Source: Levilactobacillus angrenensis
GTDB lineage: Bacteria; Bacillota; Bacilli; Lactobacillales; Lactobacillaceae
Reading direction: 5' to 3'
Assembly: GCF_003946085.1 (NCBI RefSeq)
Contig: NZ_RHOB01000008.1
Location: 1-64,000 of the forward strand
Length of the DNA: 64,000 bases
How positions within the stretch are numbered: the stretch's first letter is position 1; each line of letters opens with the position of its first letter. The notes under the pieces are model-generated. The model was not told where the DNA came from. It was given only the letters and a program-made list of their open reading frames with translations, and made no database searches. Both the position numbers and the translations under genes were made by a program. Below are positions 8,531-52,639 of the stretch, piece after piece.

Positions 8531-8578
8531 GGCATTCGGCGGCCAGCCAGTCAAGAACCAATCTAGAGAGGGAATTAT

Positions 8579-8632
8579 ATGGTTAAAACAAAAAAATCCC
8601 CAGCACAACGCCGCCAGGGGGCCCGAGCATGA
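8579..8632 (+). CDS. 17-codon leader ORF overlapping the histidine kinase start
   Basis: ATG at 8579 preceded by GAGAGGGA opens a 17-residue, strongly basic peptide (MVKTKKSPAQRRQGARA) whose stop overlaps the kinase start as ATGA (8629-8632). Either it couples translation of the kinase, or it is the original N-terminus of the kinase separated by a one-base shift, since cytoplasmic basic leaders are common before the first membrane span. Sequence alone does not decide. Confidence 0.4.
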   Translation: MVKTKKSPAQRRQGARA

Positions 8633-9804
8633 AGCTGACCACCCGAGAAAAAAGCGCGTTGTTCATGGAGGGTGTCGTCACCGTCATCTTACTGTTGATG
8701 CTGAACTTGGCGCTGCTGGTATTGATCAGCCAAGCCATCGAAAGCAACCCCGGTCTGCGGGACGGTATTTTTATCATCAAACGGTCCGTAGTGTTTGGGC
8801 CGAATCACTTTCAGCTGTGGAGCTGGGAAAATGTCTTCATTGGCTTCATGGTGATTGCGGACGCCGTGGTCGTTTGGTGGCGGCTGATTCGGCGTTACCG
8901 GCAAATGCAGCTGCACCACATCATTGAAGAGCTGCACTACATTGCCAACGGCCATTTTGACCACCGCATTCCGTTTCGGGTCAGCGGCGACGTACAACGG
9001 GTCGTGGACTCGGTCAACGCGCTGGTCGATTCCGTCATCCACTCGATGGATGAGGAGCGGGCCATCGAGAAGTCCAAAGACGAGCTGATCACCAACGTCA
9101 GCCACGATATCCGGACGCCGTTAACGTCCATCATTGGCTATCTGGGGCTGATTGAAGACCAGCAGTATCACAGTGAGGACGACTTGTTAAAGTACACGCA
9201 CACGGCATTTTTGAAGTCTAAACAGATGAAATCCTTGGTGGACGACCTGTTCGAATACACCAAGGTCCGGCAGACGGATACGCCGCTGAGCCTGACCACC
9301 ATTGATTTGGCCGCCATGCTGGAACAATTAGGTGCCAGCTTTGAGTTGGAGGCCCAAAAGAAGGGCATGACCATCGGCGCGTCCAGCGACCCGGCCAGCT
9401 TGATGATGGAGGCCGACCCCGAAAAATTGGTCCGTGTCTTCAACAATTTGGTAGCTAACGCCCTGAAGTACGGTGACGGCGGGAAGGAAATCAATTTGAT
9501 TGCCAAACGCGTCACGGCCAATGAGCTGGAGGTCCGCGTGACCAATGACGGGCCGAAGATTCCACAAGAGTCGCTGGCCCTCATCTTCGAGCGGTTCTAC
9601 CGCGTCGAGGAGTCACGCTCCAAGGAGACCGGCGGCACCGGGCTGGGGTTGGCGATTGCCCAAAGCATCGTCGCCCTGCACGGTGGCTACATCTACGTCG
9701 AATCCGACGACGACCTGACCAGTTTTGTGATTCATTTACCCGTAAAACACGACCACCCTTTGGCGATTCCCCAACGGTTAAAAACGGCGGGAACGCTCAA
9801 GTAA
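8629..9804 (+). CDS. Membrane sensor histidine kinase
   Basis: 391 residues. Two membrane spans (about 13-35 and 70-88) flank a short extracytoplasmic loop; then HAMP-like helices, the dimerisation motif NVSHDIRTP with phospho-accepting His159, N box (FNNLVANALKYG), G1 (VRVTNDGPKIP), F box (FERFYRVEESRS) and G2 (GTGLGLAI). It phosphorylates the regulator encoded 98 bases upstream. The ATG follows AGGGGG at 8615-8620. The small sensory loop is typical of intramembrane-sensing kinases responding to envelope damage; the ligand is unknown. The C-terminus extends about 20 residues beyond the ATPase domain. Confidence 0.92.
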   Translation: MKLTTREKSALFMEGVVTVILLLMLNLALLVLISQAIESNPGLRDGIFIIKRSVVFGPNHFQLWSWENVFIGFMVIADAVVVWWRLIRRYRQMQLHHIIEELHYIANGHFDHRIPFRVSGDVQRVVDSVNALVDSVIHSMDEERAIEKSKDELITNVSHDIRTPLTSIIGYLGLIEDQQYHSEDDLLKYTHTAFLKSKQMKSLVDDLFEYTKVRQTDTPLSLTTIDLAAMLEQLGASFELEAQKKGMTIGASSDPASLMMEADPEKLVRVFNNLVANALKYGDGGKEINLIAKRVTANELEVRVTNDGPKIPQESLALIFERFYRVEESRSKETGGTGLGLAIAQSIVALHGGYIYVESDDDLTSFVIHLPVKHDHPLAIPQRLKTAGTLK

Positions 9805-9852
9805 CGCTGCCGGGCGACCGGCAACTACATAAGATAGAGGAGTTTTGATGAA

Positions 9853-11175
9853 ATGAAACGTTTAAAGCAAGTTGTGATGGGCCTGGTAACGGCGATGACG
9901 CTGTTTGCCGGGAGCCTCAGTGGCTTCAGCGCGCCGGTAACGGCTCAGGCGGCCACCACCAACGCCAGCACCACGGTCAACCTGAAGGCCAAAGCCGGTA
10001 TCGCGGTCGACGCCAAGACGGGCCAGATTCTCTACGATAAAAATAGTGATAAAGTCCTGCCGGTGGCTTCGATGACCAAGCTGTTGTCGATTTACCTGGT
10101 CTTGGATGCGGTCCACAGTGGCAAATTAAAGTGGGACCAAAAGATCACCATCAATAAGGCCACGGCCAAGGTCGCCCAAGACACGAACTTGTCCAACGTG
10201 CCACTGCGGGCGGGTCACCAGTACACGGTCAAGTCCTTGTACCAAGCGTCCCTGATCTACTCCGCTAACGGCGCCATCGAAGCGCTGGGGACGGCGGTGG
10301 CCGGTTCGCCTCACGCCTTCGTGACGATGATGCGTGCCCAAGCCAAGAAGCTGGGGATGACCAACGCCAAGATTTACAACGCCTGTGGCTTGACTAACAA
10401 GCAGGTCGGTAAGCTGGGTTACAGTAACGAGGCCGGTTCGGCGGAAAACGAATGGTCCGCCGCTGACCAAGCAAAATTAGCCGTGGCGTTGCTCGACAAG
10501 TACCCCGAAGTCCTGAAGACCACCAGCATCAAGAAGATGTGGTTTGAAAAGGGCAAGGCGGACGCTACCAAGATGGAGAACTGGAACTGGATGCTCAAGG
10601 GCTTGTCCGCTTCCTATTCGAAATTACACGTGGACGGCCTGAAGACCGGGACCTCTGATGCGGCCGGTGCCAACTTTACCGGGACTGCTAACAACGATGG
10701 TAACCGCATCGTGACGGTCGTGCTCCACGCGGCTCACAAGTCAGAGACTGACCCCTCACGTTTCCAACAGACCCAAAAGATGATGTCTTACGTCTACAAC
10801 AACTTCAAGACGGTGAACCTGAAGGCCGGTAGCCAAGTCGCTGGCAGTAAGACGGTCAAAACTAATGACGCCAAGCAACCAACTGCCAAGACGGTCTTGA
10901 CTGATGGTTTGAAGCTGTGGATCCGCAACGACCAAGTCGCTAGCAATGTCCAATCCACGACGACGCTGAAGCACAAGCTGACCAAGAACAAGGCGCTGGA
11001 AGCCCCAGTTGCCAAGAATACCCAAGTGGGGACGGCCAACATTTCCTTGAAGGGTGACCAGCTCGGGTTCTTGGGGAACACCAAGACCACGACGGTACCA
11101 TTGAAGGTCACCCAGACCGTGGAGAAGGCCAATGTCTTCGTTCGTATCTGGCGGTCGATCGTCGCGTTATTCTAA
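9853..11175 (+). CDS. dacA: D-alanyl-D-alanine carboxypeptidase (class A PBP, PBP5/DacA type)
   Basis: 440 residues, secreted. A signal peptide ends near AQA (31-33). The three penicillin-binding motifs are present: Ser73-Met-Thr-Lys76 (nucleophile and base), Ser137-Ala-Asn139 and Lys264-Thr-Gly266. A PBP5-type C-terminal beta domain follows, and the last 17 residues (EKANVFVRIWRSIVALF) form the amphipathic membrane anchor. It removes the terminal D-Ala of the stem pentapeptide and so limits cross-linking. Ribosome site AGGAG (9838-9842); an ATG five bases earlier reads only two codons. It lies 48 bases after the kinase gene and is probably co-transcribed with the two-component system, which suggests it is a target or effector of that system. 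A terminator follows. Confidence 0.93.
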   Translation: MKRLKQVVMGLVTAMTLFAGSLSGFSAPVTAQAATTNASTTVNLKAKAGIAVDAKTGQILYDKNSDKVLPVASMTKLLSIYLVLDAVHSGKLKWDQKITINKATAKVAQDTNLSNVPLRAGHQYTVKSLYQASLIYSANGAIEALGTAVAGSPHAFVTMMRAQAKKLGMTNAKIYNACGLTNKQVGKLGYSNEAGSAENEWSAADQAKLAVALLDKYPEVLKTTSIKKMWFEKGKADATKMENWNWMLKGLSASYSKLHVDGLKTGTSDAAGANFTGTANNDGNRIVTVVLHAAHKSETDPSRFQQTQKMMSYVYNNFKTVNLKAGSQVAGSKTVKTNDAKQPTAKTVLTDGLKLWIRNDQVASNVQSTTTLKHKLTKNKALEAPVAKNTQVGTANISLKGDQLGFLGNTKTTTVPLKVTQTVEKANVFVRIWRSIVALF

Positions 11176-42111: not shown

Positions 42112-42181
42112 GGCTAGAAGGTCGTGTGTTTCTGACGCTGAGCTGGTATAGTAAAGACACATGTTTGGGAGGGATAGGCCA

Positions 42182-43813
42182 ATGGACTGGGAAACGTTAT
42201 TTGAGCCGCAAATCATTAAGCGGGGCTGGGATTATTATCAGCAGGGTCTGGTGAGAAATTTTCGTAACCGTGACGGGCAGATCACAGCGACGGTGTTGGG
42301 GAGCAAGCGCTATCAAGTCACGCTCGCCGTGGATGGTGAACGGCTACTGGCGGGCAGTTGTACCTGTCCGTATGCCGCTGAGGACCGCTATTGTAAGCAC
42401 ATGGCCGCGGTCTTGTTCATGGCCGATGACGTGGATGCTGGCAAGCCTGACGAAACGACCGTCGCCAACCTCCTGAAGCGCGCGACAAATCAGCAGGTGC
42501 GCGACTTCTTGGCCCAAATGATGCAGGTCGATCCCGGATTGGTGACTCGGTTTGCGCAGCAATTGGACCGTGATACCCACAAGCCGGGCATGGACCTGAG
42601 CGACTATCAACACCAGCTGGACCAAATCATGCAAAAGTACACGGACGGCACCTACTTCGTTGACTATCCCCAGGGTGATGCTCTCACCACGGCCATCGGC
42701 GACTTCTTAGCGCAAACGGTGCGGCGATTGCTGGCGGCGGAACAGATGAAGCTGGCCGTTGAGGTAGTTAACCAGGTGGCCCTGAACGTCGCCAAGTTGG
42801 AATTCGATGACGGTCTGGAAGACGAGACCATGTGGCTGGTCGATGCGTGCGCGCACGCTTGGCGACAGGTGCTTAAACCGGCCGATTACCGGGTGAAAGA
42901 ATTCGCGTTGGACTGGTTTTTAGCGAATGCGTTACGGCTGGGAGTAGTCGAAACGGATGCGCTGACCGTGATGTTTGATACCTTTCTAGAGCCGGACTTT
43001 CTTCAGAAAAAAGCCGCCTGGACCGCACATCAGTTGGCCATCGTGCCCCAGATTCGGGAGCGGCAGGAACGCCAGCGGCAGCGCAATCGCTGGGTGAAGT
43101 TGCATTTACTGACCATGCAACAGCTTGAACTGCCACCGGCCGAAATTGAACGGTTCTGTGTGGGCTATCTCAGCACCAAGCAGGCGCGATTGGCGTACGT
43201 GGCGTTGCGACTGGACCAGCAGGATTACGCAACGGCCGTGCGCCAACTGATTCTGGGCCAACAGGCCGCCCCGTCATGGGACAAAGCGGACTTTAGCGAC
43301 CAACTGCGCCAGCTGTATCGTCAGTTGGCCCAGACCGCCACCCCGGAACTGCAGCGGTCTCTATTTGTCCTGAGCTACGGCCTTGGAGACCTGGACTTCT
43401 ACCAGGTCTTGAAGCGGCAGTGTGCGCCCGAACAATGGCTCCAGTGGCGTCAATACCTGTTAGCTGGGTTACCCCAAAATACGGATCAGCTGCCCTTGTT
43501 GGCCGTGGACCAGGCATACCCCGACTTGCTAGCAGGAGTCCTGGCCCGACCAGGATTACAGGCGGTGCAGGACTATCAACGGCTCTTGTTGCCGCAATTT
43601 GCCCCACAGCTGGTTGAAAAATACGTGCGGGAGCTGCATCAGGCGGCCCAGTCGGCGAAGTCACGTACCCAGTATCACCAGTTGGTCGCCTGGTTGACTG
43701 ACCTAGTCAAGTTGCCCGGTGGCCGACTGGTTGCCAATCGGGTGGTAAGAGATTGGCGGCAGCGTTACCGCCGGCGCTCGGCCATGATGGCTGAGCTCAA
43801 CGTTTACTTTTAA
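42182..43813 (+). CDS. SWIM zinc-finger protein
   Basis: 543 residues from ATG 42182, eight bases after GGGAGG. N-terminal SWIM motif CxC-x8-CxH: Cys60, Cys62, Cys71, His73 (SCTCPYAAEDRYCKHMAAVL). The rest is helical with repeated tetratrico-like pairs. SWIM domains bind DNA or protein; stand-alone members next to PRiA4_ORF3-like proteins are found in many bacteria without a known role. Extended -10 TGGTATAGT is at 42144-42152. Followed after 19 bases by the PRiA4-like gene, so the two form an operon. Confidence 0.85.
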   Translation: MDWETLFEPQIIKRGWDYYQQGLVRNFRNRDGQITATVLGSKRYQVTLAVDGERLLAGSCTCPYAAEDRYCKHMAAVLFMADDVDAGKPDETTVANLLKRATNQQVRDFLAQMMQVDPGLVTRFAQQLDRDTHKPGMDLSDYQHQLDQIMQKYTDGTYFVDYPQGDALTTAIGDFLAQTVRRLLAAEQMKLAVEVVNQVALNVAKLEFDDGLEDETMWLVDACAHAWRQVLKPADYRVKEFALDWFLANALRLGVVETDALTVMFDTFLEPDFLQKKAAWTAHQLAIVPQIRERQERQRQRNRWVKLHLLTMQQLELPPAEIERFCVGYLSTKQARLAYVALRLDQQDYATAVRQLILGQQAAPSWDKADFSDQLRQLYRQLAQTATPELQRSLFVLSYGLGDLDFYQVLKRQCAPEQWLQWRQYLLAGLPQNTDQLPLLAVDQAYPDLLAGVLARPGLQAVQDYQRLLLPQFAPQLVEKYVRELHQAAQSAKSRTQYHQLVAWLTDLVKLPGGRLVANRVVRDWRQRYRRRSAMMAELNVYF

Positions 43814-43832: not shown

Positions 43833-44363
43833 ATGCAAGAGAAACCCGTTGCGATGGAAATCACGATTAAATTGAAGGATGTTCGCCTGGCGACGTGGCG
43901 GACGTTGTTGGTCCCCATTGACATTCGCTACGATCAGCTACACGTGCTGTTACAGCTAGCGTTTGGCTGGGAAAATGAGCACCTCTACGGCTTCTGGCCC
44001 AAGAGACACAGCGACCAGATGTACGTGCAATCAGTCGATGAGTGGGGTGGCTTGGGGGACATTCCCGCGTCCCAGGGGCATCTGTACACCGATGTCGCGG
44101 TCGGACCGGTGATTTACGAATACGACTTCGGCGATAGCTGGGAGCACGTGATTACCTTAAAGCACGTCTTAACGGCACCCCAACTGGCGGGGCGGCAGCT
44201 GCCCAGTTGCGTGCGGGGTTCCGGTGCTAACCGCTTGGAAGATGCGCGGGGAATGAGTGACGAAGGCCAGGGTGACCGTTACAACCGGTCGGCAGTGAAT
44301 CATTTGCTGGCACATTGGAAGACGGCTGAGAAGGCTATGAATGCTGAGGAGGGGTACTTCTGA
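43833..44363 (+). CDS. PRiA4_ORF3-like protein
   Basis: 176 residues. The core is KLKDVRLATWRTLLVP (the 'P.IWR' strand), DQLHVLLQLAFGWENEHLYG, and the family hallmark IYEYDFGDSWEHVITLK, matching the plasmid pRiA4b ORF-3-like family, whose function is unknown. The C-terminus carries RNRLED-like and KTAEKAMNAEEGYF segments. ATG 43833 reads MQEKPVAMEITIKL; the Met at codon 8 is an alternative. Downstream partner of the SWIM gene. Confidence 0.85.
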   Translation: MQEKPVAMEITIKLKDVRLATWRTLLVPIDIRYDQLHVLLQLAFGWENEHLYGFWPKRHSDQMYVQSVDEWGGLGDIPASQGHLYTDVAVGPVIYEYDFGDSWEHVITLKHVLTAPQLAGRQLPSCVRGSGANRLEDARGMSDEGQGDRYNRSAVNHLLAHWKTAEKAMNAEEGYF

Positions 44364-45343: not shown

Positions 45344-45472
45344 ATGATGATAAACACGGCTACACAGTTACCACAAACTGGTGAACTGGTGACCAGTTGG
45401 ATCCAGTGGCTGGGCGCGGTCTGCCTCCTGGTCTTAGGCGGGGCTGGTCTGCGTTGGTGGCGACGACACTAA
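45344..45472 (+). pseudogene. C-terminal sortase-anchor remnant (LPQTGE)
   Basis: 42 codons: MMINTATQLPQTGE, a hydrophobic span (LGAVCLLVLGGAGL) and the tail RWWRRH. This is a complete LPxTG sorting signal without the protein it should anchor; there is no ribosome site and no signal peptide, so I read it as the end of a lost surface-protein gene. A hairpin terminator (45502-45536) follows it. Confidence 0.7.
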
Positions 45473-45501: not shown

Positions 45502-45536
45502 AAACGGTCAGACCGCCACATGGTTTGGCCGTTTTT
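45502..45536 (+). terminator. Terminator after the LPQTGE remnant
   Basis: AAACGGTCAGACC pairs with GGTTTGGCCGTTT, then TTTTT. Confidence 0.8.
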
Positions 45537-45540
45537 AGTC

Positions 45541-45905
45541 TTAGTTGCGCATGACTGATTTTGACCTTAATAGGAAAGCTTATCGTAAGCTTAAAATTTG
45601 TGAGTGATTTTCACGTGCTTTCTTCCCGACAAAAAGTGACGTGAAAAGTTCGCTACTGGCGCCAAAACCTAGTACAATGGAGGTGGTTAAGGGCCGTCAT
45701 GATGACGCCTGAGTGGGGTGCGTAAATGGCCATTAAGCCAGGGATTACCAAACGATTAGAAACTATATATTGTATGAAAATGTTAGCTTGCTTAATGGAC
45801 AATGATGGCATAGTATAACGATAGATGAAACATTTGATAGTTGCACAGGTAGCGGCCGGTTTAGATAACGGGCTGCTTGCCTTCTTGGAGGGAGGATTTG
45901 ACCTC
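45541..45905 (+). promoter_or_regulatory. Upstream region of the XrtG operon
   Basis: A 365-base gene-free stretch. It has a perfect dyad AAGCTTA-TCG-TAAGCTT (about 45576-45592), then TTTTCACGT (45608-45616) and ACGTGAAAA (45639-45647) in inverted orientation. TACAAT at 45673-45678 is a possible -10, giving a 5' leader of over 200 bases, and GTATAAC near 45812 a possible second start. GGAGGGAGG at 45887-45895 is the ribosome site of the substrate gene. Confidence 0.5.
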
Positions 45906-47123
45906 ATGAAGTTGTGGAAGTTAATGATAGCAGGTGTGGTTGCGTTAGGACTAGCTGGCGCAGCGACCGTGAGCGCGACACCGGTGACGGCTCACGCGAG
46001 CGATAACGTCACGATTGATGGCAAGTTTTCGGATTGGGACGGGACCAGTCTTACCGTGGGGTATAACGGGTACACGGCTCTGAAGAGTAATGGTAAGTAT
46101 ATTGATGTGTATGTGAAAATGAAGAACGGTCCAGTTCCAGGACATGGTGATTACATTTTTAAAATAGGCGGGAAAACTTACCATGCCTGGTCAAATGATA
46201 TTGATGGTACGCCTAGCAAAGGGAGCGTTAAGTCGTTTACCGTGACCGGTGGTTCTGATTTTGATGGCACGCAATATGGTACAGTTGGTGCCGGATATAC
46301 AACGAACGATGGTAGCAATTATCTGGGAGAATTTCGAATCGATCTCAGTAAGTTTGGGCTAAAAGACTCAGACAACGGTGATCAGGTCACCATGACCAAT
46401 CCCAATATTGGTAGCGATGCAGCGAAGACCACTGTAGACGATATGTCCGCTAGTGACGATGCCAATGCCACTTCCGGTGTTGTTGATGGCAAGGCTGACA
46501 GCAGTTCCAAAGCCACGACCACAACTGATACCAATGCCAGCAACGATAACGATAATCTCAATATTAAGATTGATGGGAAGTATGAAGACTGGAAGGACAT
46601 CAAGTTGACTGAAGGTTATGGTGGCTACACCGCCTTGGTTAGTGATGGTGACAAGGTCTATGCTTATGCTCGAATGAAGTATCAAACGATTCCTCGCACG
46701 GGGTATCGGTTTGACTTTAATGGCAAGACGATTTATGTCTGGGCCAATGATGTGCCGACGAATCCGGTGAAACATGGTGAAGCAGTTGCTGTCCACTTCT
46801 ATGGCGGTAATACTGAACAAGACTACGATCCTAATGCTGATTATGGTCAAGTGGGGATGGGGTACGTCTCCAGTGACAGCAATGGAAAGAATATTATCGA
46901 ATTTGAAATCGATGTCGGCAAGCTGAATCTATCGAGCATGACTGGTCAAACGATTACCATGGATAATTCCAGTATCGGTGATAAAGCGGTCACCGTCGCC
47001 GGTGGGTCCACCGGCCCTTACGTCATCTCCGGCATTGGTCTGGGAATCGCTGGTCTCGGCTACTGGCGGTTACGCAAGTCGGGCAAGCTGAAGCGCCGCG
47101 AGAAGCAAACGACCGGGAAGTAA
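45906..47123 (+). CDS. Exosortase G substrate: secreted protein with Firmicutes-type CTERM tail
   Basis: 405 residues. Signal peptide (to about AHAS, 32), two homologous domains of about 135 residues (VTIDGKFSDWDGTSLTVGYN and IKIDGKYEDWKDIKLTEGYG), a Ser/Thr/Asp linker between them, and a C-terminal sorting tail: GGSTGPYVISGIGLGIAGLG span followed by WRLRKSGKLKRRE. The IDGxxxDW starts resemble family 9 carbohydrate-binding modules, so sugar binding is possible. The tail (small motif, membrane span, basic end) is the Firmicutes CTERM type processed by XrtG, whose gene follows 64 bases later. It is the only CTERM protein in the window. The C-terminal tail replaces the LPxTG motif used by ordinary sortase. 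Confidence 0.85.
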   Translation: MKLWKLMIAGVVALGLAGAATVSATPVTAHASDNVTIDGKFSDWDGTSLTVGYNGYTALKSNGKYIDVYVKMKNGPVPGHGDYIFKIGGKTYHAWSNDIDGTPSKGSVKSFTVTGGSDFDGTQYGTVGAGYTTNDGSNYLGEFRIDLSKFGLKDSDNGDQVTMTNPNIGSDAAKTTVDDMSASDDANATSGVVDGKADSSSKATTTTDTNASNDNDNLNIKIDGKYEDWKDIKLTEGYGGYTALVSDGDKVYAYARMKYQTIPRTGYRFDFNGKTIYVWANDVPTNPVKHGEAVAVHFYGGNTEQDYDPNADYGQVGMGYVSSDSNGKNIIEFEIDVGKLNLSSMTGQTITMDNSSIGDKAVTVAGGSTGPYVISGIGLGIAGLGYWRLRKSGKLKRREKQTTGK

Positions 47124-47187
47124 ACGTTAGTGGCCAGCAGTCTGTGGTCAGCAACGTTAGCAAAGTTAATTAATAGGACTGGTGCGA

Positions 47188-47787
47188 ATGAAGATAAGTA
47201 TCCTAGTGGGAACGGTCGTGTGGCTGTATGCGTTATCCGTTTTAAAGCGAGCTCGGTTGTCTGCCTACTTCTTTATTGTGGGAAGCGCCGGACTCTTCTT
47301 TATCCTCTCGGCCATCAGTCGGCCGTACTGGGTCTGGTTCTTCACCCACGCAGTCATTCACGGCGTCGCGCTATTTCGCGACCTGACGGGGTGGTGCACG
47401 ATCATGTACAATACCGGACTGGTCTATATCACCAATGGCGCCAATCCGGTCATCATGTCGATCGACTACGAGTGTTCGGGTATCATTGAGACTTGTGCCT
47501 TCGTGGCGCTGGTCGTCTTCTTCCCCATGTACCACCGCAAGGAAAAGGTGTTCTACGCGCTATTTGGCTTAGTTTACATTTACGCCATCAACGTGATTCG
47601 CCTGTGCCTCGTGATTATCATCGTCCACTTTGGCGGCGGGCAAACGTTCTTCATTGCCCACTCGATTATCGGGCGGCTGGTCTTCTACGTGCTGGTGATT
47701 GCCTTGTACTACAACGTCTTTACCTATTCACAGTTGGCGCACGGCATTTATCGGGAGTTCATCGATTGGAGGCAAGATAAACTTTGA
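47188..47787 (+). CDS. xrtG: Exosortase family protein XrtG
   Basis: 199 residues with about six membrane spans. The exosortase/archaeosortase catalytic triad is present and in order: Cys96 (DYECSGIIE), Arg138 (INVIRLC) and His158 (IAHSIIGR). XrtG is the Gram-positive exosortase, a membrane-embedded cysteine transpeptidase thought to cut CTERM-tagged proteins and link them to an unknown acceptor. ATG 47188 was chosen over GTG 47182 because of spacing from AGGAC. The stop overlaps the start of the glycosyltransferase gene (TGATG). All genes from 45906 to 51173 run in one direction with tiny gaps, so it is one operon. Confidence 0.9.
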   Translation: MKISILVGTVVWLYALSVLKRARLSAYFFIVGSAGLFFILSAISRPYWVWFFTHAVIHGVALFRDLTGWCTIMYNTGLVYITNGANPVIMSIDYECSGIIETCAFVALVVFFPMYHRKEKVFYALFGLVYIYAINVIRLCLVIIIVHFGGGQTFFIAHSIIGRLVFYVLVIALYYNVFTYSQLAHGIYREFIDWRQDKL

Positions 47788-49142
47788 TGTACTGGATCAA
47801 TTTAGCATTGACACGGATGGGGTTCTGGATTACCTGGGCGTTGATTCCCATTGTGGTGGAAATCATTCCGGCCATCATCTCGACCATCAAGCTGATGCGG
47901 CTCCATCTCCATGAGCCCAAGCTGACGCCGCCGGGTAAATGGCCGTGGGTGACGATTATCGTCCCGGTTTATAACTCAGAGGATACTTTATTTGAGTGTA
48001 TCCGCTCGATCAATAACCAGACCTATCCCAAGAGTGCCATGCAAATTGTTCTGGCCAATAACCAAAGCACCGACGACAGTTTCGGCGCCTACGCCCGGGC
48101 GCAAAACACCTTTCCGGAACTGATTTTACGTTACGTCAACACGGACAAAGGGAAGGCCCGGGCGCTCAACACCGCCATTTACGAAAGCATCGGCATCTAC
48201 GTCATCAACATTGATAGTGACGGCCTGCTGGAGAAAAACGCCGTGAAGAACATGGTGTTGCGGTTTGAAAATGATAATAGCATCGCTGCCATGACCGGGG
48301 CCATTTTACCCAAACGGGAAATGGTTCAAAACGTCAAAGGGTTCTGGCATAAGATGTTGGCGAAAAATGAATACTACGAATATGCCCAGGCCTTCCTGTC
48401 GGGGCGGACGATTGAGTCGTCTAAAGACCAGCTGTTTACCATGTCGGGGGCCTTTTCTGCCTTTCGTCGGGAAGTCTTGATGGAGACGTTTCTCTATGAC
48501 ATCGACACGATTGGCGAGGATACCGACATGACCTTTCAGATTCGTACGCGGCTGGGTAAGAAGGTCGTCATCTGTGCCGACGCCATCTTCTACGTCGAGC
48601 CGATTTCGGGCTTTTCCGAGCTGTACACGCAGCGGCAACGCTGGCAACGTGGCGAGTTGGAGGTTACTGAGAACTATATGTCGCAGACCGCCAGCCTCAA
48701 GCGGTTCTTCAAGAACTTTCTGGTGCGGCGGATGATTATTGACCACACCTTCACGTTTCCGCGGATGATTTGGACATTTGCCAGCTTTGTCCTGGTGGCG
48801 TTCGGGTATGCGCCGTTGATCTTGATTTTGTCGTATGCCCTGATTTATGCGCTCTACGTCTTCGTAGCCATTATCAACTTCGCCAGTGTCTGCGTGATTC
48901 TGCGCAAATACCCGGGCGAGCAGCATTTCTACTCCCATCTGTGGTGGGTGACCTTACTGCTACCGCTGTATATGTTCGTCAATTCATGGATTCGGCTGGT
49001 CGGTATCATCAACGCCATGACCACCCAGGCGACCTGGCACATGCGCGGTGTCGGTGAGGAATACCACCGCATCACGGCCGTATTACGCGACGACGTGGAA
49101 ACGATTCGCGAGCAGCGTCGGCGTGATCGGAAAGGAAAATGA
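47787..49142 (+). CDS. XrtG-associated family 2 glycosyltransferase
   Basis: 451 residues. One N-terminal span, then a GT-A domain with TIIVPVYNSEDTLFECIRS, the DxD motif in YVINIDSDGLLEKNA, GEDTDMTFQIR, and QRQRWQRGELEV (the Q/RxxRW motif of processive enzymes), and three or four C-terminal spans. It resembles cellulose/hyaluronan-synthase-like transferases and the glycosyltransferase regularly found beside xrtG. I infer that it makes or extends a glycan on the CTERM substrate or its acceptor. Overlaps xrtG by 1 base and the next gene by 4 bases. Confidence 0.88.
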   Translation: MYWINLALTRMGFWITWALIPIVVEIIPAIISTIKLMRLHLHEPKLTPPGKWPWVTIIVPVYNSEDTLFECIRSINNQTYPKSAMQIVLANNQSTDDSFGAYARAQNTFPELILRYVNTDKGKARALNTAIYESIGIYVINIDSDGLLEKNAVKNMVLRFENDNSIAAMTGAILPKREMVQNVKGFWHKMLAKNEYYEYAQAFLSGRTIESSKDQLFTMSGAFSAFRREVLMETFLYDIDTIGEDTDMTFQIRTRLGKKVVICADAIFYVEPISGFSELYTQRQRWQRGELEVTENYMSQTASLKRFFKNFLVRRMIIDHTFTFPRMIWTFASFVLVAFGYAPLILILSYALIYALYVFVAIINFASVCVILRKYPGEQHFYSHLWWVTLLLPLYMFVNSWIRLVGIINAMTTQATWHMRGVGEEYHRITAVLRDDVETIREQRRRDRKGK

Positions 49143-49588
49143 GTATGCAAAAACAACGCAGCTATAAAATTAAATCATATGTCAATGCCAGTCACGCGGT
49201 CCGGTGGAAGTCCGGGACTGGGAAGAAGCACAATCACACCTGGGAAATCGTCTGTGAGCTGCACGTGTTTGAGGGGATGGTGTCGTTCTTTGACATCGAA
49301 AAGTCGCTGAACAAGGCCATCGATGCCTTGTCCGGTAAATACTTGAATGACCTGCCAGAATTCAAGGTGATCAATCCCACCGTCGAAAACGTCACGGAAT
49401 ACCTCTTTAATCAAATTGACGGCATCCTGCGGCAAAATAACGCGGTACTCTTACGTATCGAGGTCAGTGATTCGCCGACCCGGTCGTATTGTATCGACAT
49501 CACGGAGCGGCAGTTCCCGACCGAAGCAGAAGTCACCCAGCAACAAGCCACGGGCAAGCAGTCCCCCCAGGCGGACGACCATGCGTAG
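49139..49588 (+). CDS. 6-pyruvoyl-tetrahydropterin synthase-related protein of the XrtG cluster
   Basis: 149 residues; start overlaps the glycosyltransferase stop (ATGA). The T-fold zinc site is visible: His19 (NASHAVRW), His31 and His33 (KKHNHTW). The catalytic cysteine that QueD/PTPS enzymes carry between those histidines is missing (WKSGTGKKHNH), so neither classical PTPS nor QueD activity is expected. Conserved parts NPTVENVTEYLFNQID and VSDSPTRSYCID remain. A protein of this kind is a regular part of XrtG loci; its task is unknown. Metal binding without the usual chemistry is inferred. Confidence 0.85.
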   Translation: MSMQKQRSYKIKSYVNASHAVRWKSGTGKKHNHTWEIVCELHVFEGMVSFFDIEKSLNKAIDALSGKYLNDLPEFKVINPTVENVTEYLFNQIDGILRQNNAVLLRIEVSDSPTRSYCIDITERQFPTEAEVTQQQATGKQSPQADDHA

Positions 49589-51173
49589 GTTTTATAATTT
49601 CAGCCAAAGCGTCATTAATTTTTTCTGGCGGATTTTGTTTTTCTTGACGCTGTTTTTTGCGCTGACGTCGCCGAACATCATTCTCGGAGATAATCCTACG
49701 TTTGGGACCAGCACGACCCTGTTGACCACTGGTTTAGTGATTGGCATCGTGGCGATTTTGGTCATGAATTATGCTTATCCACGGGTGCATGCGTGGTTGG
49801 TGAACATCTTAGTGACTGAACAGATTCGGACTGGGCTGGTTTTGCTAGGTTTGGTTTTGATTGGTCAGATTATCTTTATCTACTTTGTCCATCCCGTCAG
49901 TGGGTTTGATGCCGGCATGCTACACTATGCGGCCGTTAACGTGACGCACGTCCAGGAAGTTGGGGTCACTTCGTATTACAGCCTCAACCAAAACAACATG
50001 CCAATCATGCTGTTCATGCACTGGCTAGTCACGTTAACGGGGCAGACGTCGTGGATGTTTTTTGATTACGTAACGCTAGTCTTTGTAGATTTGTCGGCGG
50101 TCTTAAATCTGCTGATCGTCATGCTGGTGCAGCGGCGGGCGCTGGGAACCGCGATGTATTTGCACGCGGCTTGGTTAGCCGTGTTTCCCAGCATTATCAT
50201 GCCATATACCGATGCATGGGGCTTGCCGTTGGTGTCATTTTACCTGTTGTGCTACTTCATTATGCGCCGCGCCACAGTGCACCCGCTGATTCGGGCAGTG
50301 GCGGCCAATGGCTTTGGAATCAGTGTGATGCTGACGTATTTCATGAAACCTTCGTCGATCATTCCGGTCATTGCGATTGCCATTATTGAGCTATTGAACC
50401 TATTGATCAATCATCGACGAGTGACGTTAGAGGCGGCTTTTATTGCCTTTGCCATGCTGCTATTCATCGGCCGTAGTGGATTTGAGACGTACCGTTACGT
50501 CGACCACAAAGTTGAAAGTCAGACCTATATTCAGCTAGATAAATCACGGGCGATTCCAGCGATTCACTTCATGGCCATGGGTATCTATGGTCAGGGTGGC
50601 TATAGCGAAAAGCAAGCGATTATGATGGCGGTGTTGCCCACGGCAAAGCAGAAATCTGATTATTCCATCAAGATGTTTAAGAAGCGGCTGAAGAAATTAG
50701 GGCCGCTGGGGTACTTGGAATTTCTAGTCAAAAAACAGCGAAATAACACGGCTGACGGGACCTTTGGCTGGCTAAAGGAAGGGAATTTCTTCCGTGAGAA
50801 TCAAAAGCCTAATAATAACGGCATTGCGAATAAACTGAAAAATTTTATTTACCTGTATGGTCGGCATATCGCCGATTTTCGGTTTGCCGCGCAACTCTGG
50901 TGGATTGCACTACTGCTGATGATTGGCTTAGGCTTTGGCCCGCGTCGAGATGTGATTCAAATCCTCCGACTAGCCATGGTCGGCGGCTTCATGTTCCTGT
51001 TGCTCTTTGAAGGGGGCCGGAGTCGCTACATCATTCAGTATTTGCCATGTCTGCTGTTGCTAGCGACCTTCTCGTATGAACGGGTAGTCATCAACGTTAA
51101 GCGGCTAGCCGGCGTGTATGAACGCAAGCTGGACGCGGCTATTGCGGCGGATGAACGGGAACAAAGTGAATAG
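49581..51173 (+). CDS. XrtG-associated polytopic membrane protein, GT-C-like
   Basis: 530 residues from ATG 49581, overlapping the upstream gene by 8 bases; the longer upstream-open frame has no start signal. About twelve spans; IFIYFVHPVSGFDAGMLHYA after the third span and NQNNMPIMLFMHWLV look like the catalytic first loop of GT-C glycosyltransferases of the dolichyl-phosphate-mannose type (GT39-like). A large loop (about 325-440) is extracytoplasmic, ending in KNFIYLYGRHIADFRFAAQL. Last gene of the operon; a terminator follows. It may transfer lipid-linked sugar to the CTERM protein, which is an inference. Confidence 0.8.
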   Translation: MRRFYNFSQSVINFFWRILFFLTLFFALTSPNIILGDNPTFGTSTTLLTTGLVIGIVAILVMNYAYPRVHAWLVNILVTEQIRTGLVLLGLVLIGQIIFIYFVHPVSGFDAGMLHYAAVNVTHVQEVGVTSYYSLNQNNMPIMLFMHWLVTLTGQTSWMFFDYVTLVFVDLSAVLNLLIVMLVQRRALGTAMYLHAAWLAVFPSIIMPYTDAWGLPLVSFYLLCYFIMRRATVHPLIRAVAANGFGISVMLTYFMKPSSIIPVIAIAIIELLNLLINHRRVTLEAAFIAFAMLLFIGRSGFETYRYVDHKVESQTYIQLDKSRAIPAIHFMAMGIYGQGGYSEKQAIMMAVLPTAKQKSDYSIKMFKKRLKKLGPLGYLEFLVKKQRNNTADGTFGWLKEGNFFRENQKPNNNGIANKLKNFIYLYGRHIADFRFAAQLWWIALLLMIGLGFGPRRDVIQILRLAMVGGFMFLLLFEGGRSRYIIQYLPCLLLLATFSYERVVINVKRLAGVYERKLDAAIAADEREQSE

Positions 51174-51318: not shown

Positions 51319-51987
51319 TTAGTTATTAACGATTTCAGATTCTAACTTACTCGCTTTGCCTTCAGCAACCCATTTCGAGAAAGGAGTGAGTATTTTCATT
51401 AACTGATCGACAATTGGGCCATATCCGAATATTGCGACTAGTGTACCAATTCCCCAGGCGCCACCAAGTGCCCATGCAGCGCTAAACAAAATAGCATAGA
51501 CAATTGTTAGTGATATGCCATAGCCCTTATGAATGATTTCGCCTAGTGAGAGGGTTAAGATATCTGAAGTTTGATAGCCGAAATTCATCGGAATATAGTA
51601 GGCTAACGCCAAGCATACCAGTGCGGTCCCGATAATGATGCAAAGAATTTTAACTGCAATCGATGGGTTTCCTGGAATTACAGCATTGACTACGGGTGAC
51701 ATTAAGTCTAGACAGGGACCGATACCAAAGCAATAAGCGAATGAACCGAAATTAACAAGCTTACGATTGAGAAAGAAAAATAAGACGAAGATACCACCTT
51801 CAAAAGTTAGTGAGGCCATTCCTAATGAGATGTTAAACGTTGAGGATAAAGCCAATTCCCACATTGTTAGGGGATCGGTACCCCATCCTGCTTTAACGAA
51901 GAAATCCACACCTAGAGCGCAAATCGGAACAGAAGGGACTACAGCTAAGCATTTTCGTAAGTAGTAGCCAATCTTATTTTTAGTCAT
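51319..51987 (-). CDS. YczE/YyaS-type polytopic membrane protein
   Basis: 222 residues, five spans; PSVPICALGVDFFVKAGWGTDP, then the FGYQTSDILTLSLGE segment and GIGTLVAIFGYGPIVDQLM near the C-terminus fit the YczE/YyaS group, transporters or permeases of unknown substrate. Overlaps the cyclase gene by 8 bases, third gene of the operon that starts at 53814. A role in moving the substrate or product of the two enzymes is inferred. Confidence 0.7.
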   Translation of the reverse strand: MTKNKIGYYLRKCLAVVPSVPICALGVDFFVKAGWGTDPLTMWELALSSTFNISLGMASLTFEGGIFVLFFFLNRKLVNFGSFAYCFGIGPCLDLMSPVVNAVIPGNPSIAVKILCIIIGTALVCLALAYYIPMNFGYQTSDILTLSLGEIIHKGYGISLTIVYAILFSAAWALGGAWGIGTLVAIFGYGPIVDQLMKILTPFSKWVAEGKASKLESEIVNN

Positions 51988-52639
51988 CATCTTCTACCTC
52001 GATTGCCACTGGCCGAACGGGAGATCCATCACAGTGCCAACGGATTGGAAAACTAGCTAGATAGAAATTCTTGCTGTGGATACGGTCAAAGTGCCCCCAG
52101 TTTTCTCCAATCATTAAGTTACGATTGCTAAATAAATCGTGTACTGGAAATTCAGTACCACCGGTTTGGTCAGCATTAATAGTATCAATTCCTAAGAACT
52201 TGATACCATGATTCACTAACTCTTCAGCAACTTCGCCATTCACGTAGGGGTGTTTGAAGTAAGTTTCGGTATGGATATATTTATCTGTCCACCCGGTTTT
52301 GAATAAGACAAATGGATGTGATTTTACGTCTTCCAGGTATGGCGCCACATCATCCAGTGTAATGGCTTCATTTTCTTTTTTTCCAGTGACATCAATCAGC
52401 ATTGCCTTTCCAAAGAAAAGATCTAGTGGCATGTTGTCTACTCGAGTACCGGCATCGCGAAAATGAAATGGTGCATCTACGTGAGATCCAGATTGAGAGC
52501 CTAAATGGATGCTTGATAAATTGTAACCATCGTGTTCTGTAGTTGTAGCGACTTCAAAATGAGGTTCTGGATCGCCAGGGTAAATTGGAGTATCGTCATT
52601 TAAGTCTAAAGAAAGATCATCAAATTGTTTGATATGCAT
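51980..52639 (-). CDS. Cyclase-family (kynurenine formamidase-like) hydrolase
   Basis: 219 residues. The metal motif HLGSQSGSHVDAPFHF (HxGTHxDxPxH variant) and later VLFKTGWTDKY and FLGIDTINADQ are signatures of the cyclase/arylformamidase family, which hydrolyses amides, isatin or lactams using bound Mn/Zn. SQSGSH has Ser in place of the usual Thr. Substrate unknown. Encoded between the alcohol dehydrogenase and the membrane protein. Confidence 0.82.
   Translation of the reverse strand: MHIKQFDDLSLDLNDDTPIYPGDPEPHFEVATTTEHDGYNLSSIHLGSQSGSHVDAPFHFRDAGTRVDNMPLDLFFGKAMLIDVTGKKENEAITLDDVAPYLEDVKSHPFVLFKTGWTDKYIHTETYFKHPYVNGEVAEELVNHGIKFLGIDTINADQTGGTEFPVHDLFSNRNLMIGENWGHFDRIHSKNFYLASFPIRWHCDGSPVRPVAIEVEDDD

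Follow-up and report, generated by a model that had tools for sequence, protein, structure and literature searches.

The window, the whole stretch of 64,000 nucleotides of Levilactobacillus angrenensis DNA that was analysed, contains a complete exosortase G (XrtG) operon at positions 45906-51173. Its five genes are all present, open and in the order Firmicu-CTERM protein, XrtG, TIGR03111 family 2 glycosyltransferase (GT2), TIGR03112 PTPS-like protein and TIGR03766 membrane protein (GT-C protein; Table 1). Each product scores above the curated cut-off of its expected NCBIfam model, with 218.9 bits against 50 for the CTERM protein (TIGR04145), 246.5 against 102.75 for XrtG (TIGR03110), 687.1 against 363.95 for GT2 (TIGR03111), 127.6 against 69.35 for the PTPS-like protein (TIGR03112) and 720.4 against 500 for the GT-C protein (TIGR03766). 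The first two genes are separated by 64 nt, and the following junctions (XrtG/GT2, GT2/PTPS-like and PTPS-like/GT-C) overlap by 4, 4 and 8 nt, respectively; the GT2 gene starts with TTG. The initial annotation, which had proposed five coupled genes forming a complete XrtG operon and had called for checking them against family models, is borne out, and its numbering of the Cys96/Arg138/His158 triad is right when XrtG is counted from the ATG at 47188. Its operon start at 45541 lies in leader DNA; the CTERM gene begins at an ATG at 45906 with a good ribosome site in front.

Table 1. Positions of the operon genes and associated features within the window
Feature	Position	Strand	Basis
Terminator-like hairpin and T tail, upstream of operon	45502..45534	+	pattern scan
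Firmicu-CTERM substrate protein, 405 aa	45906..47123	+	TIGR04145
CTERM sorting tail: GGSTGP motif, hydrophobic helix, Lys/Arg-rich end	47001..47123	+	sequence, alignment
Exosortase XrtG, 199 aa, putative catalytic Cys96/Arg138/His158	47188..47787	+	TIGR03110, alignment
TIGR03111 family 2 glycosyltransferase, 452 aa	47784..49142	+	NCBIfam, motifs
TIGR03112 PTPS-like protein, 149 aa	49139..49588	+	NCBIfam, alignment
TIGR03766 GT-C fold membrane glycosyltransferase, 530 aa	49581..51173	+	NCBIfam, modelled fold

Pattern scanning found eight terminator-like hairpins in the stretch against 6.1 expected in shuffles, which is weak by itself, and 11 promoter sites against 8.7 expected, a count that is not informative; no Rfam family matched the window at its gathering score.

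An XrtG search retrieved 80 loci in which XrtG is surrounded by the same gene set, so the operon is not a chance arrangement. With the window included, and with losses at contig edges counted as misses, the 81 loci contain CTERM in 81, GT2 in 80, GT-C in 74 and PTPS in 66 cases. One fetched locus (L083) is labelled archaeal (a Methanovirga genome); its contig also encodes Mga-type and Cro/C1-type regulators and is probably a misplaced Lactobacillales contig, and we claim no archaeal transfer. The XrtG/Firmicu-CTERM system catalogued in NCBIfam comprises the same five families (TIGR03110, TIGR03111, TIGR03112, TIGR03766 and TIGR04145) and has been named the 'Exosortase G (XrtG) system' in L. 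plantarum (PMC12854382), making the window operon a further member of a known system. The components listed for L. plantarum are a CTERM protein, an Xrt and two glycosyltransferases, whereas the window copy also has a PTPS gene in the operon (PMC12854382).

The exosortase, its substrate and two glycosyltransferases

All 80 aligned XrtG sequences, that of the window included, have the Cys/Arg/His triad. The window's own genome contains one XrtG match. Its only Firmicu-CTERM protein is that of the operon, in which the repeat domain occurs twice, and a search of the genome at E up to 1 gave no second substrate; this indicates one enzyme with one substrate. The Gram-negative PEP-CTERM/EpsH system likewise combines a sorting tail and a membrane enzyme of conserved triad with adjacent polysaccharide genes, but usually has many substrates per genome rather than one, and differs in motif and cell envelope (PMC1569441). 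Archaeosortase A of Haloferax shares the tripartite tail, the active-site Cys and a proposed transfer to an acceptor, but there the attachment is to lipid and needs PssA/PssD homologues, whereas the partners in the window are glycosyltransferases (PMC7157517).

Besides its signal peptide and C-terminal sorting tail, the substrate has a Ser/Thr-rich linker and two TIGR04145 repeat domains, which are all-beta in the model. The signal peptide and the motif, helix and basic end of the tail can be read directly in the sequence, as expected of a Firmicu-CTERM protein, and among 62 aligned rows G366 and T369 of the tail are each conserved in 60 and G370 in 58. Residues 177-222, mostly linker, include 13 Ser/Thr among 46; in many relatives the CTERM protein has a single repeat domain and lacks a linker of this kind. 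We had taken the IDGxFxDW repeat as a possible sign of a carbohydrate-binding module (CBM9-like), an idea dropped when no Pfam family matched the window protein at E 0.01. A sub-cut-off DUF5065 match (E 0.027) was the single Pfam match of the substrate, the 62 CTERM members gave five families with one member each (all weak, one named CBM-like), and searching PDB sequences with the substrate profile gave one match at E 0.11. Foldseek and VIA-align matched the substrate model mostly to antibody domains (Z up to 7.0), a likeness that may reflect just the common beta-sandwich, and we claim no fold family.

By its motifs (D97, D144xD146, E245-D246 and QRQRW at 283-287, with hydrophobic segments at both ends), GT2 bears the hallmarks of a processive synthase of the BcsA/PgaC type, and every one of the 73 aligned sequences has the DxD, ED and QxxRW elements. 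It scores 125.8 bits against the 422.3 of the PgaC/IcaA equivalog model TIGR03937, which marks it as a relative of PgaC, not PgaC itself. The modelled TIGR03766 protein has the ArnT/Pmt GT-C fold: it superposes on ArnT with Z 21.7 (310 residues, 3.5 A) and on Pmt4 with Z 17.5, and the first 48 structure matches are GT-C proteins by title, with the next at Z 5.0. Of 64 aligned rows, 63 have residue D110, which we read as the catalytic acid of the first outer loop.

The initial annotation had suggested that the substrate becomes glycosylated or linked to a glycan. The processive GT2 motifs and the GT-C fold fit this suggestion, in which the protein-glycan bond itself is hypothetical. Another possible, though unlikely, arrangement is that XrtG attaches the substrate to a lipid of the membrane, that the GT-C protein O-glycosylates the Ser/Thr-rich linker, and that the protein never becomes linked to the exported glycan. 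The resemblance of the GT-C model to Pmt4 and ArnT and the Ser/Thr content of residues 177-222 are compatible with such a division of labour, as are the lipid attachment backed by haloarchaeal ArtA work (PMC7157517) and, in a PEP-CTERM system, a polysaccharide unaffected by EpsH disruption (PMC1569441). However, the many relatives with a single repeat domain have no such linker, and this arrangement would not explain why a processive-type GT2 is constantly present.

Cyclic di-GMP genes at XrtG loci

GGDEF and/or EAL genes are present in 22 of the 81 XrtG stretches, and in 12 stretches they lie within 300 nt of a core gene on the same strand, as in an Enterococcus locus with the order XrtG-GT2-PTPS-GTC-EAL-GGDEF-CTERM. 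Across 70 genomes, XrtG loci contain 17 GGDEF genes against 2.5 expected or, because the supposedly archaeal L083 is suspect, 16 against 2.49 when it is left out. In E. gallinarum, L. falkenbergense and a Streptococcaceae MAG, the sole GGDEF and the sole EAL match of the genome are found at the XrtG locus. The Lactococcus plasmid pBV60, which groups with a Streptococcaceae locus (L085), carries DGC-EAL-CTERM-xrtG-GT2-PTPS-GTC in one row, with motifs checked; among the control genomes, L. lactis had no GGDEF or EAL match. GGDEF is present in 68 of 70 XrtG genomes and in 109 of 238 others from the order sample, counts that are not independent in related genomes (L069 and L070 are one species); within the order sample XrtG-negative genomes are often GGDEF-positive and Fisher's test gives a P of only 0.002.

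In the window, the operon has no GGDEF or EAL gene next to it, so the linkage seen for the XrtG family does not extend to the immediate surroundings of this copy. The genome has three GGDEF and four EAL matches over cut-off, and one GGDEF gene ~19 kb downstream of the operon is 64-69% identical to the GGDEF genes that three relatives carry 0.6-3.1 kb behind their operons. A Pfam scan of the five proteins at E up to 1 showed neither PilZ nor any other known c-di-GMP-binding domain.

One of the closest known systems is the c-di-GMP-controlled gts operon of Lactobacillus acidophilus, in which a GGDEF protein raises EPS and co-aggregation (PMC6123363). Like XrtG systems, it has a PgaC/BcsA-like GT2 with an EAL protein encoded beside it, but no sortase, CTERM or pterin protein is named there (PMC6123363). 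The gts receptor is a degenerate EAL protein (PMC6123363), whereas several EAL proteins near XrtG keep their catalytic motifs, as judged by eye.

Taken as genomic evidence, these observations suggest that XrtG systems are probably c-di-GMP-controlled. It seems rather improbable that the c-di-GMP genes are neighbours merely through the clustering of biofilm genes, with the system under other control and the PTPS-like protein binding another ligand. In favour of this reading are the 59 of 81 loci with no GGDEF/EAL gene in the DNA stretch covered, the E. eligens and Aneurinibacillus loci, where none is annotated within 9 kb (in an incomplete gene table), and Oenococcus oeni, which keeps an XrtG system with an intact-looking PTPS alongside no GGDEF or EAL matches and is, with L. 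selangorensis, one of the two XrtG genomes missing GGDEF. Against it stand GGDEF/EAL genes placed inside operons under several genus labels, pairs that are the only ones of their genomes and the self-contained plasmid cassette of pBV60. In the open-licence papers searched, we found none stating a link between XrtG and c-di-GMP, and 'c-di-GMP', 'diguanylate' and 'GGDEF' are absent from the main text of the L. plantarum study (PMC12854382).

The PTPS-like protein as a candidate sensor

The PTPS-like protein shares PF01242 and the zinc ligands with QueD/6-pyruvoyl-tetrahydropterin synthase (H19 in 65 of 65 aligned sequences, with one gap, and H31 and H33 in 66 of 66), but three QueD residues that we take to be catalytic, Cys27, Asp70 and His71, are replaced by T27, S65 and G66. 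A working enzyme making a pterin or deazapurine for the system is very improbable: the PF01242 score (51.6 bits) and the invariant zinc histidines would favour it, but besides these replacements no Cys occurs at positions 24-31 in any of the 66 sequences, and the QueD model TIGR03367 gives 30 bits against a cut-off of 89.25. The acidic residue 111, where PTPS enzymes presumably hold the guanine-like pterin ring, is kept in the window protein and is non-acidic in only one of 66, that of L. selangorensis; the co-loss of GGDEF and this residue in L. selangorensis was not counted, because Oenococcus, also without GGDEF, keeps it.

Among 246 genomes of one order, TIGR03112 is above cut-off in exactly the eight genomes with XrtG above cut-off and in none of the 238 others. 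Twelve XrtG genomes were checked for PTPS, of which four lack it and a fifth has only sub-cut-off pieces; an unlinked PTPS lies between GGDEF and EAL genes in one MAG, and in two species it has no c-di-GMP gene nearby. These features make the PTPS-like protein a candidate c-di-GMP sensor. A cyanobacterial genetic interaction between a PTPS-like protein and a c-di-AMP gene (PMC5897029) was set aside.

A working model and its implications

We give about even odds to the operon encoding a c-di-GMP-switched machine at the cell surface that produces a glycan and processes a single dedicated secreted protein. The signal peptide would direct export of the CTERM protein, which the C-terminal helix would then hold in place. 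GT2, as a processive PgaC/BcsA-like synthase, would make and export the glycan. ArnT and Pmt use a polyprenyl-phosphate donor on the outer face, and the GT-C protein may likewise add sugars there from such a donor. XrtG would cut the substrate near GGSTGP through its Cys-Arg-His triad and transfer it, with the glycan or a glycolipid from the two glycosyltransferases as the most likely acceptor. The genomic association suggests that c-di-GMP, made by diguanylate cyclases and removed by EAL proteins, turns on the synthase. The least certain step is the link from c-di-GMP (or a pterin) to GT2, for which the PTPS-like protein would probably serve as sensor or adaptor.

A wider and decidedly speculative extension is that XrtG systems are portable c-di-GMP-gated machines loading a dedicated protein onto a new surface glycan. 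TIGR03112 would then form a new class of c-di-GMP (or pterin) receptors with a tetrahydropterin-synthase fold, lacking the catalytic Cys/Asp/His but keeping the zinc site and the acidic anchor of a guanine-like ring, that gates a processive glycosyltransferase.

In the open-licence literature searched we found no established role, acceptor or trigger of XrtG, in agreement with the initial annotation, which had described the acceptor and the task of the partners as not established. To this the present analysis adds likely c-di-GMP control and a PTPS-like protein without catalytic residues that occurs with XrtG. L. plantarum strains that strongly induce interferon over-express the system (PMC12854382), and its product may therefore be relevant to food and the gut. 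The c-di-GMP link offers a concrete handle on XrtG, with the glycan and substrate cleavage as read-outs. To our knowledge c-di-GMP has been little studied in lactic acid bacteria; its control of XrtG systems, if true, would connect this messenger with protein sorting and could extend the range of receptor folds.

The exosortase G operon and its conservation

The exosortase G (XrtG) operon of the window is tightly packed, with 64 nt between the genes for the CTERM substrate and XrtG, and overlaps of 4, 4 and 8 nt at the remaining junctions; the next long open reading frame downstream (51319–51990) lies on the opposite strand. The catalytic triad proposed in the initial annotation, Cys96, Arg138 and His158, is correct with XrtG numbered from the ATG at 47188. 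This XrtG shares 98% identity with its L. suantsaiihabitans counterpart, and the window's own genome contains a single XrtG match and a single Firmicu-CTERM protein.

Coordinates of the operon features in the window and of the plasmid cassette
Feature	Location	Strand	Remark
Terminator-like hairpin	45502–45534		upstream of the five-gene operon
CTERM protein	45906–47123	+	NCBIfam score above cut-off
XrtG	47188–47787	+	NCBIfam score above cut-off
Family 2 glycosyltransferase (GT2)	47784–49142	+	NCBIfam score above cut-off
PTPS-like protein	49139–49588	+	NCBIfam score above cut-off
Large membrane protein (TIGR03766)	49581–51173	+	NCBIfam score above cut-off
pBV60 seven-gene cassette (L115)	NZ_CP110851.1, 4413–10691		own cyclase and EAL protein

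Immediately 5' of the operon, a 42-codon frame beginning MMINTATQLPQTGELV (45344–45472, +), with a hydrophobic stretch and a WWRRH end, resembles an isolated LPQTG sortase signal, perhaps left over from a gene for a surface protein. Further upstream lie a gene for a SWIM zinc-finger protein (42161–43813, +; 25.7 bits) and, after it, a pRiA4b ORF-3-like gene (43833–44363).

A profile built from 8 aligned XrtG sequences was used to search a genome collection with one genome per species (84,980 species). The search yielded 129 relatives; keeping the best 80 loci and adding the window gave a set of 81. Partner genes, called by home-made profiles at E ≤ 0.001 with losses at contig ends scored as misses, were CTERM in 81 loci, GT2 in 80, the TIGR03766 gene (GT-C) in 74 and PTPS-like in 66, and the window operon is ordinary for the family. 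The Cys/Arg/His triad is invariant in 80/80 aligned XrtG sequences, the window's included, in an alignment that omits four shorter or weaker matches. In the substrate, a G-G-S-T-G-P motif precedes the helix of the tail; across an alignment of 62 of the 77 CTERM proteins passing our filter (the window's counted), G366 is kept in 60 rows, T369 in 60, G370 in 58 and P371 in 54. Five genomes have two XrtG loci each. In L. brevis CD0817 (8536–10510 of locus L032), the XrtG match is split into two pieces ~1.3 kb apart, as if an insertion interrupted the gene.

Glycosyltransferases and the PTPS-like partner

By sequence, GT2 is a relative of PgaC/IcaA, scoring 125.8 bits against that family model, below its cut-off of 422.3. 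The DxD, ED and QxxRW motifs of processive synthases are kept in 73/73 aligned GT2 sequences, and the window protein has hydrophobic segments at both termini; a Pfam scan of GT2 found no PilZ domain. For the TIGR03766 protein, a structure was predicted using 64 sequences (pLDDT 91.2). Foldseek alone returned nothing under 0.001 for this model, and VIA-align on the Foldseek candidates placed ArnT at the top (Z 21.7, 310 residues, 3.5 Å), followed by ALG12, Pmt4, oligosaccharyltransferases, EmbB, GPI mannosyltransferase and a GPI transamidase subunit (chain U). Judged by their titles, the first 48 rows are all GT-C proteins, and Z drops to 5.0 at row 49; given these matches, the protein as modelled has a GT-C fold. 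GT-C enzymes take polyprenyl-phosphate sugars at the outer face, as established for ArnT and Pmt. Loci L042, L044 and L079 have additional TIGR03766-like genes near XrtG, which suggests a more complex glycan there.

The PTPS-like protein belongs to PF01242 (51.6 bits), and its T27, S65 and G66 align with QueD Cys27, Asp70 and His71, which we take to be catalytic. In an alignment of 66 sequences from 64 loci, with shorter or weaker matches omitted, no sequence has a cysteine at positions 24–31, and the zinc histidines are invariant (H19 in 65/65, with one gap; H31 and H33 in 66/66). Position 111 is acidic (Glu or Asp) in 65 of 66 sequences and, by our reading, aligns with the glutamate that grips the pterin ring of PTPS enzymes. 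Two PTPS-like genes occur at the XrtG loci L095 and L096 (a Clostridiales MAG) and L116; in E. eligens, one of the two encodes an 811-residue PTPS-related protein and takes the place that the GT-C gene has at other loci.

Within the order, TIGR03112 exceeds its cut-off in 8/246 genomes, the same eight with XrtG above cut-off, and in 0/238 others, where one genome with a weak, stop-containing XrtG match was scored XrtG-negative; ten further genomes have weak TIGR03112 matches below cut-off. We also searched 12 genomes selected for an XrtG locus with PTPS missing, broken or inverted, or for one that stopped early: PTPS exceeds the cut-off somewhere in seven of these genomes, is present as sub-cut-off pieces in one and is absent from four. 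The incomplete MAG UBA5815, whose XrtG locus lacks PTPS, has the gene order GGDEF-PTPS-EAL elsewhere, with <40 nt between frames; Pfam confirmed its GGDEF (diguanylate cyclase) and PTPS domains, and the partly masked EAL (c-di-GMP phosphodiesterase) frame comes from the profile only. EAL lies directly 3' of PTPS in Limosilactobacillus and Ligilactobacillus. Because of these PTPS neighbourhoods, a modest ground, we regard the PTPS-like protein as a candidate c-di-GMP sensor. The lone PTPS genes of L. plantarum EGD-AQ4 and Paucilactobacillus have no GGDEF/EAL neighbour within 4 kb.

c-di-GMP genes at XrtG loci and genome-wide

When non-core open reading frames of the 81 loci were clustered by similarity, a GGDEF/EAL family came under the most genus labels (13); Pfam on 32 of its 33 members assigned 19 GGDEF and 13 EAL. 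These genes occur in 22/81 stretches, in 12 of them within 300 nt of a core gene and on its strand, for example XrtG-GT2-PTPS-GTC-EAL-GGDEF-CTERM in Enterococcus, EAL-GGDEF-CTERM-XrtG-GT2-PTPS-GTC in Leuconostoc falkenbergense and GGDEF-CTERM-GTC-XrtG-GT2-PTPS-EAL in Ligilactobacillus. Seventeen family members have a GGDEF-type motif. By eye, most of the 13 EAL rows retain ExLLR, the acidic pair and the final Glu and Gln; L044, L045, L057 and L083 deviate. The L083 contig (JAISTD010000016.1), which holds a full XrtG cassette, was assigned to the bin of the methanogen Candidatus Methanovirga australis, probably in error, because it also carries Mga-type and Cro/C1-type regulators.

In 70 XrtG genomes, the fetched loci hold 17 GGDEF genes against 2.5 expected (Poisson 1.5e-9), or 16 against 2.49 without L083, both figures ignoring relatedness. 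Among 14 genomes with a single GGDEF match, it sits at the XrtG locus in five (L083 among them) against 0.13 expected. The XrtG locus holds both the sole GGDEF and the sole EAL match of E. gallinarum, of L. falkenbergense and of a Streptococcaceae MAG. GGDEF was found in 19/20 and 49/50 XrtG genomes and EAL in 19/20, in genome-wide counts that leave out loci L064, L088, L066, L087 and L099. In the order sample, GGDEF (E ≤ 0.001) occurs in 8/8 XrtG-positive genomes versus 109/238 others (P 0.002), and among the genomes listed from the window's family in 7/7 versus 10/28 (P 0.003). Oenococcus oeni DSM 20252 (L084), whose genome gave no GGDEF or EAL match, has an XrtG system that is perhaps decaying, its GT-C frame being split.

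After the c-di-GMP idea arose, annotated plasmids were searched with GT2 (E ≤ 1e-60); four records matched, and three were examined, the fourth being a second L. eligens record. Lactococcus lactis plasmid pBV60 carries, in one row, genes for a diguanylate cyclase, EAL, Firmicu-CTERM, xrtG, GT2, PTPS-like and GT-C proteins. GGDEF, QRQRW and zinc motifs are kept, and the PTPS cysteine is absent. The plasmid is predicted to be conjugative, and bacteriocin genes as well as an IS6 transposase lie close to the cassette. Because its GT2 groups with Streptococcaceae locus L085, pBV60 is not a fully independent case. The L. lactis among 14 control genomes, a strain other than the pBV60 host, has no GGDEF or EAL match. 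Counting against the c-di-GMP idea, an incomplete gene table lists no GGDEF/EAL gene within 9 kb of the E. eligens locus or the Aneurinibacillus locus; both loci have a PTPS-type gene.

Proposed control of the window copy and relation to earlier work

The window genome has three GGDEF and four EAL matches over cut-off, none of which adjoins the operon, so for this copy we infer c-di-GMP control rather than see it alongside. One GGDEF protein, encoded on the operon's contig ~19 kb further downstream, is 64–69% identical to GGDEF proteins encoded behind the GT-C gene in three relatives (at 0.6 kb in L. fuyuanensis and in one uncultured species, at 3.1 kb in L. hammesii) versus 39–41% to the other two of its own genome. 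In a midpoint-rooted GT2 tree, in which several outer rows are long-branched, the outer branches hold most tightly linked loci and the window clade is among the rows not tightly linked. An early GGDEF/EAL linkage, separated later, is possible.

A complete XrtG system has been named in L. plantarum and is over-expressed in strongly interferon-inducing strains (PMC12854382); the available portion of that paper contains no xrtG mutant, and its main text no c-di-GMP terms. The family also appears as a table entry in L. brevis in the accessible part of PMC8951740. In L. acidophilus, a GT2 operon has been linked to c-di-GMP, but without an exosortase, as far as the available text goes (PMC6123363). 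The accessible portions of the open-licence literature on exosortases, E. gallinarum, archaeal GGDEF proteins, pyruvoyl-tetrahydropterin and lactobacillar cyclases contained no statement joining XrtG to c-di-GMP. To our knowledge, both the evidence tying the XrtG family to c-di-GMP and the PTPS-like member as a dedicated XrtG partner that lacks the catalytic residues are new.
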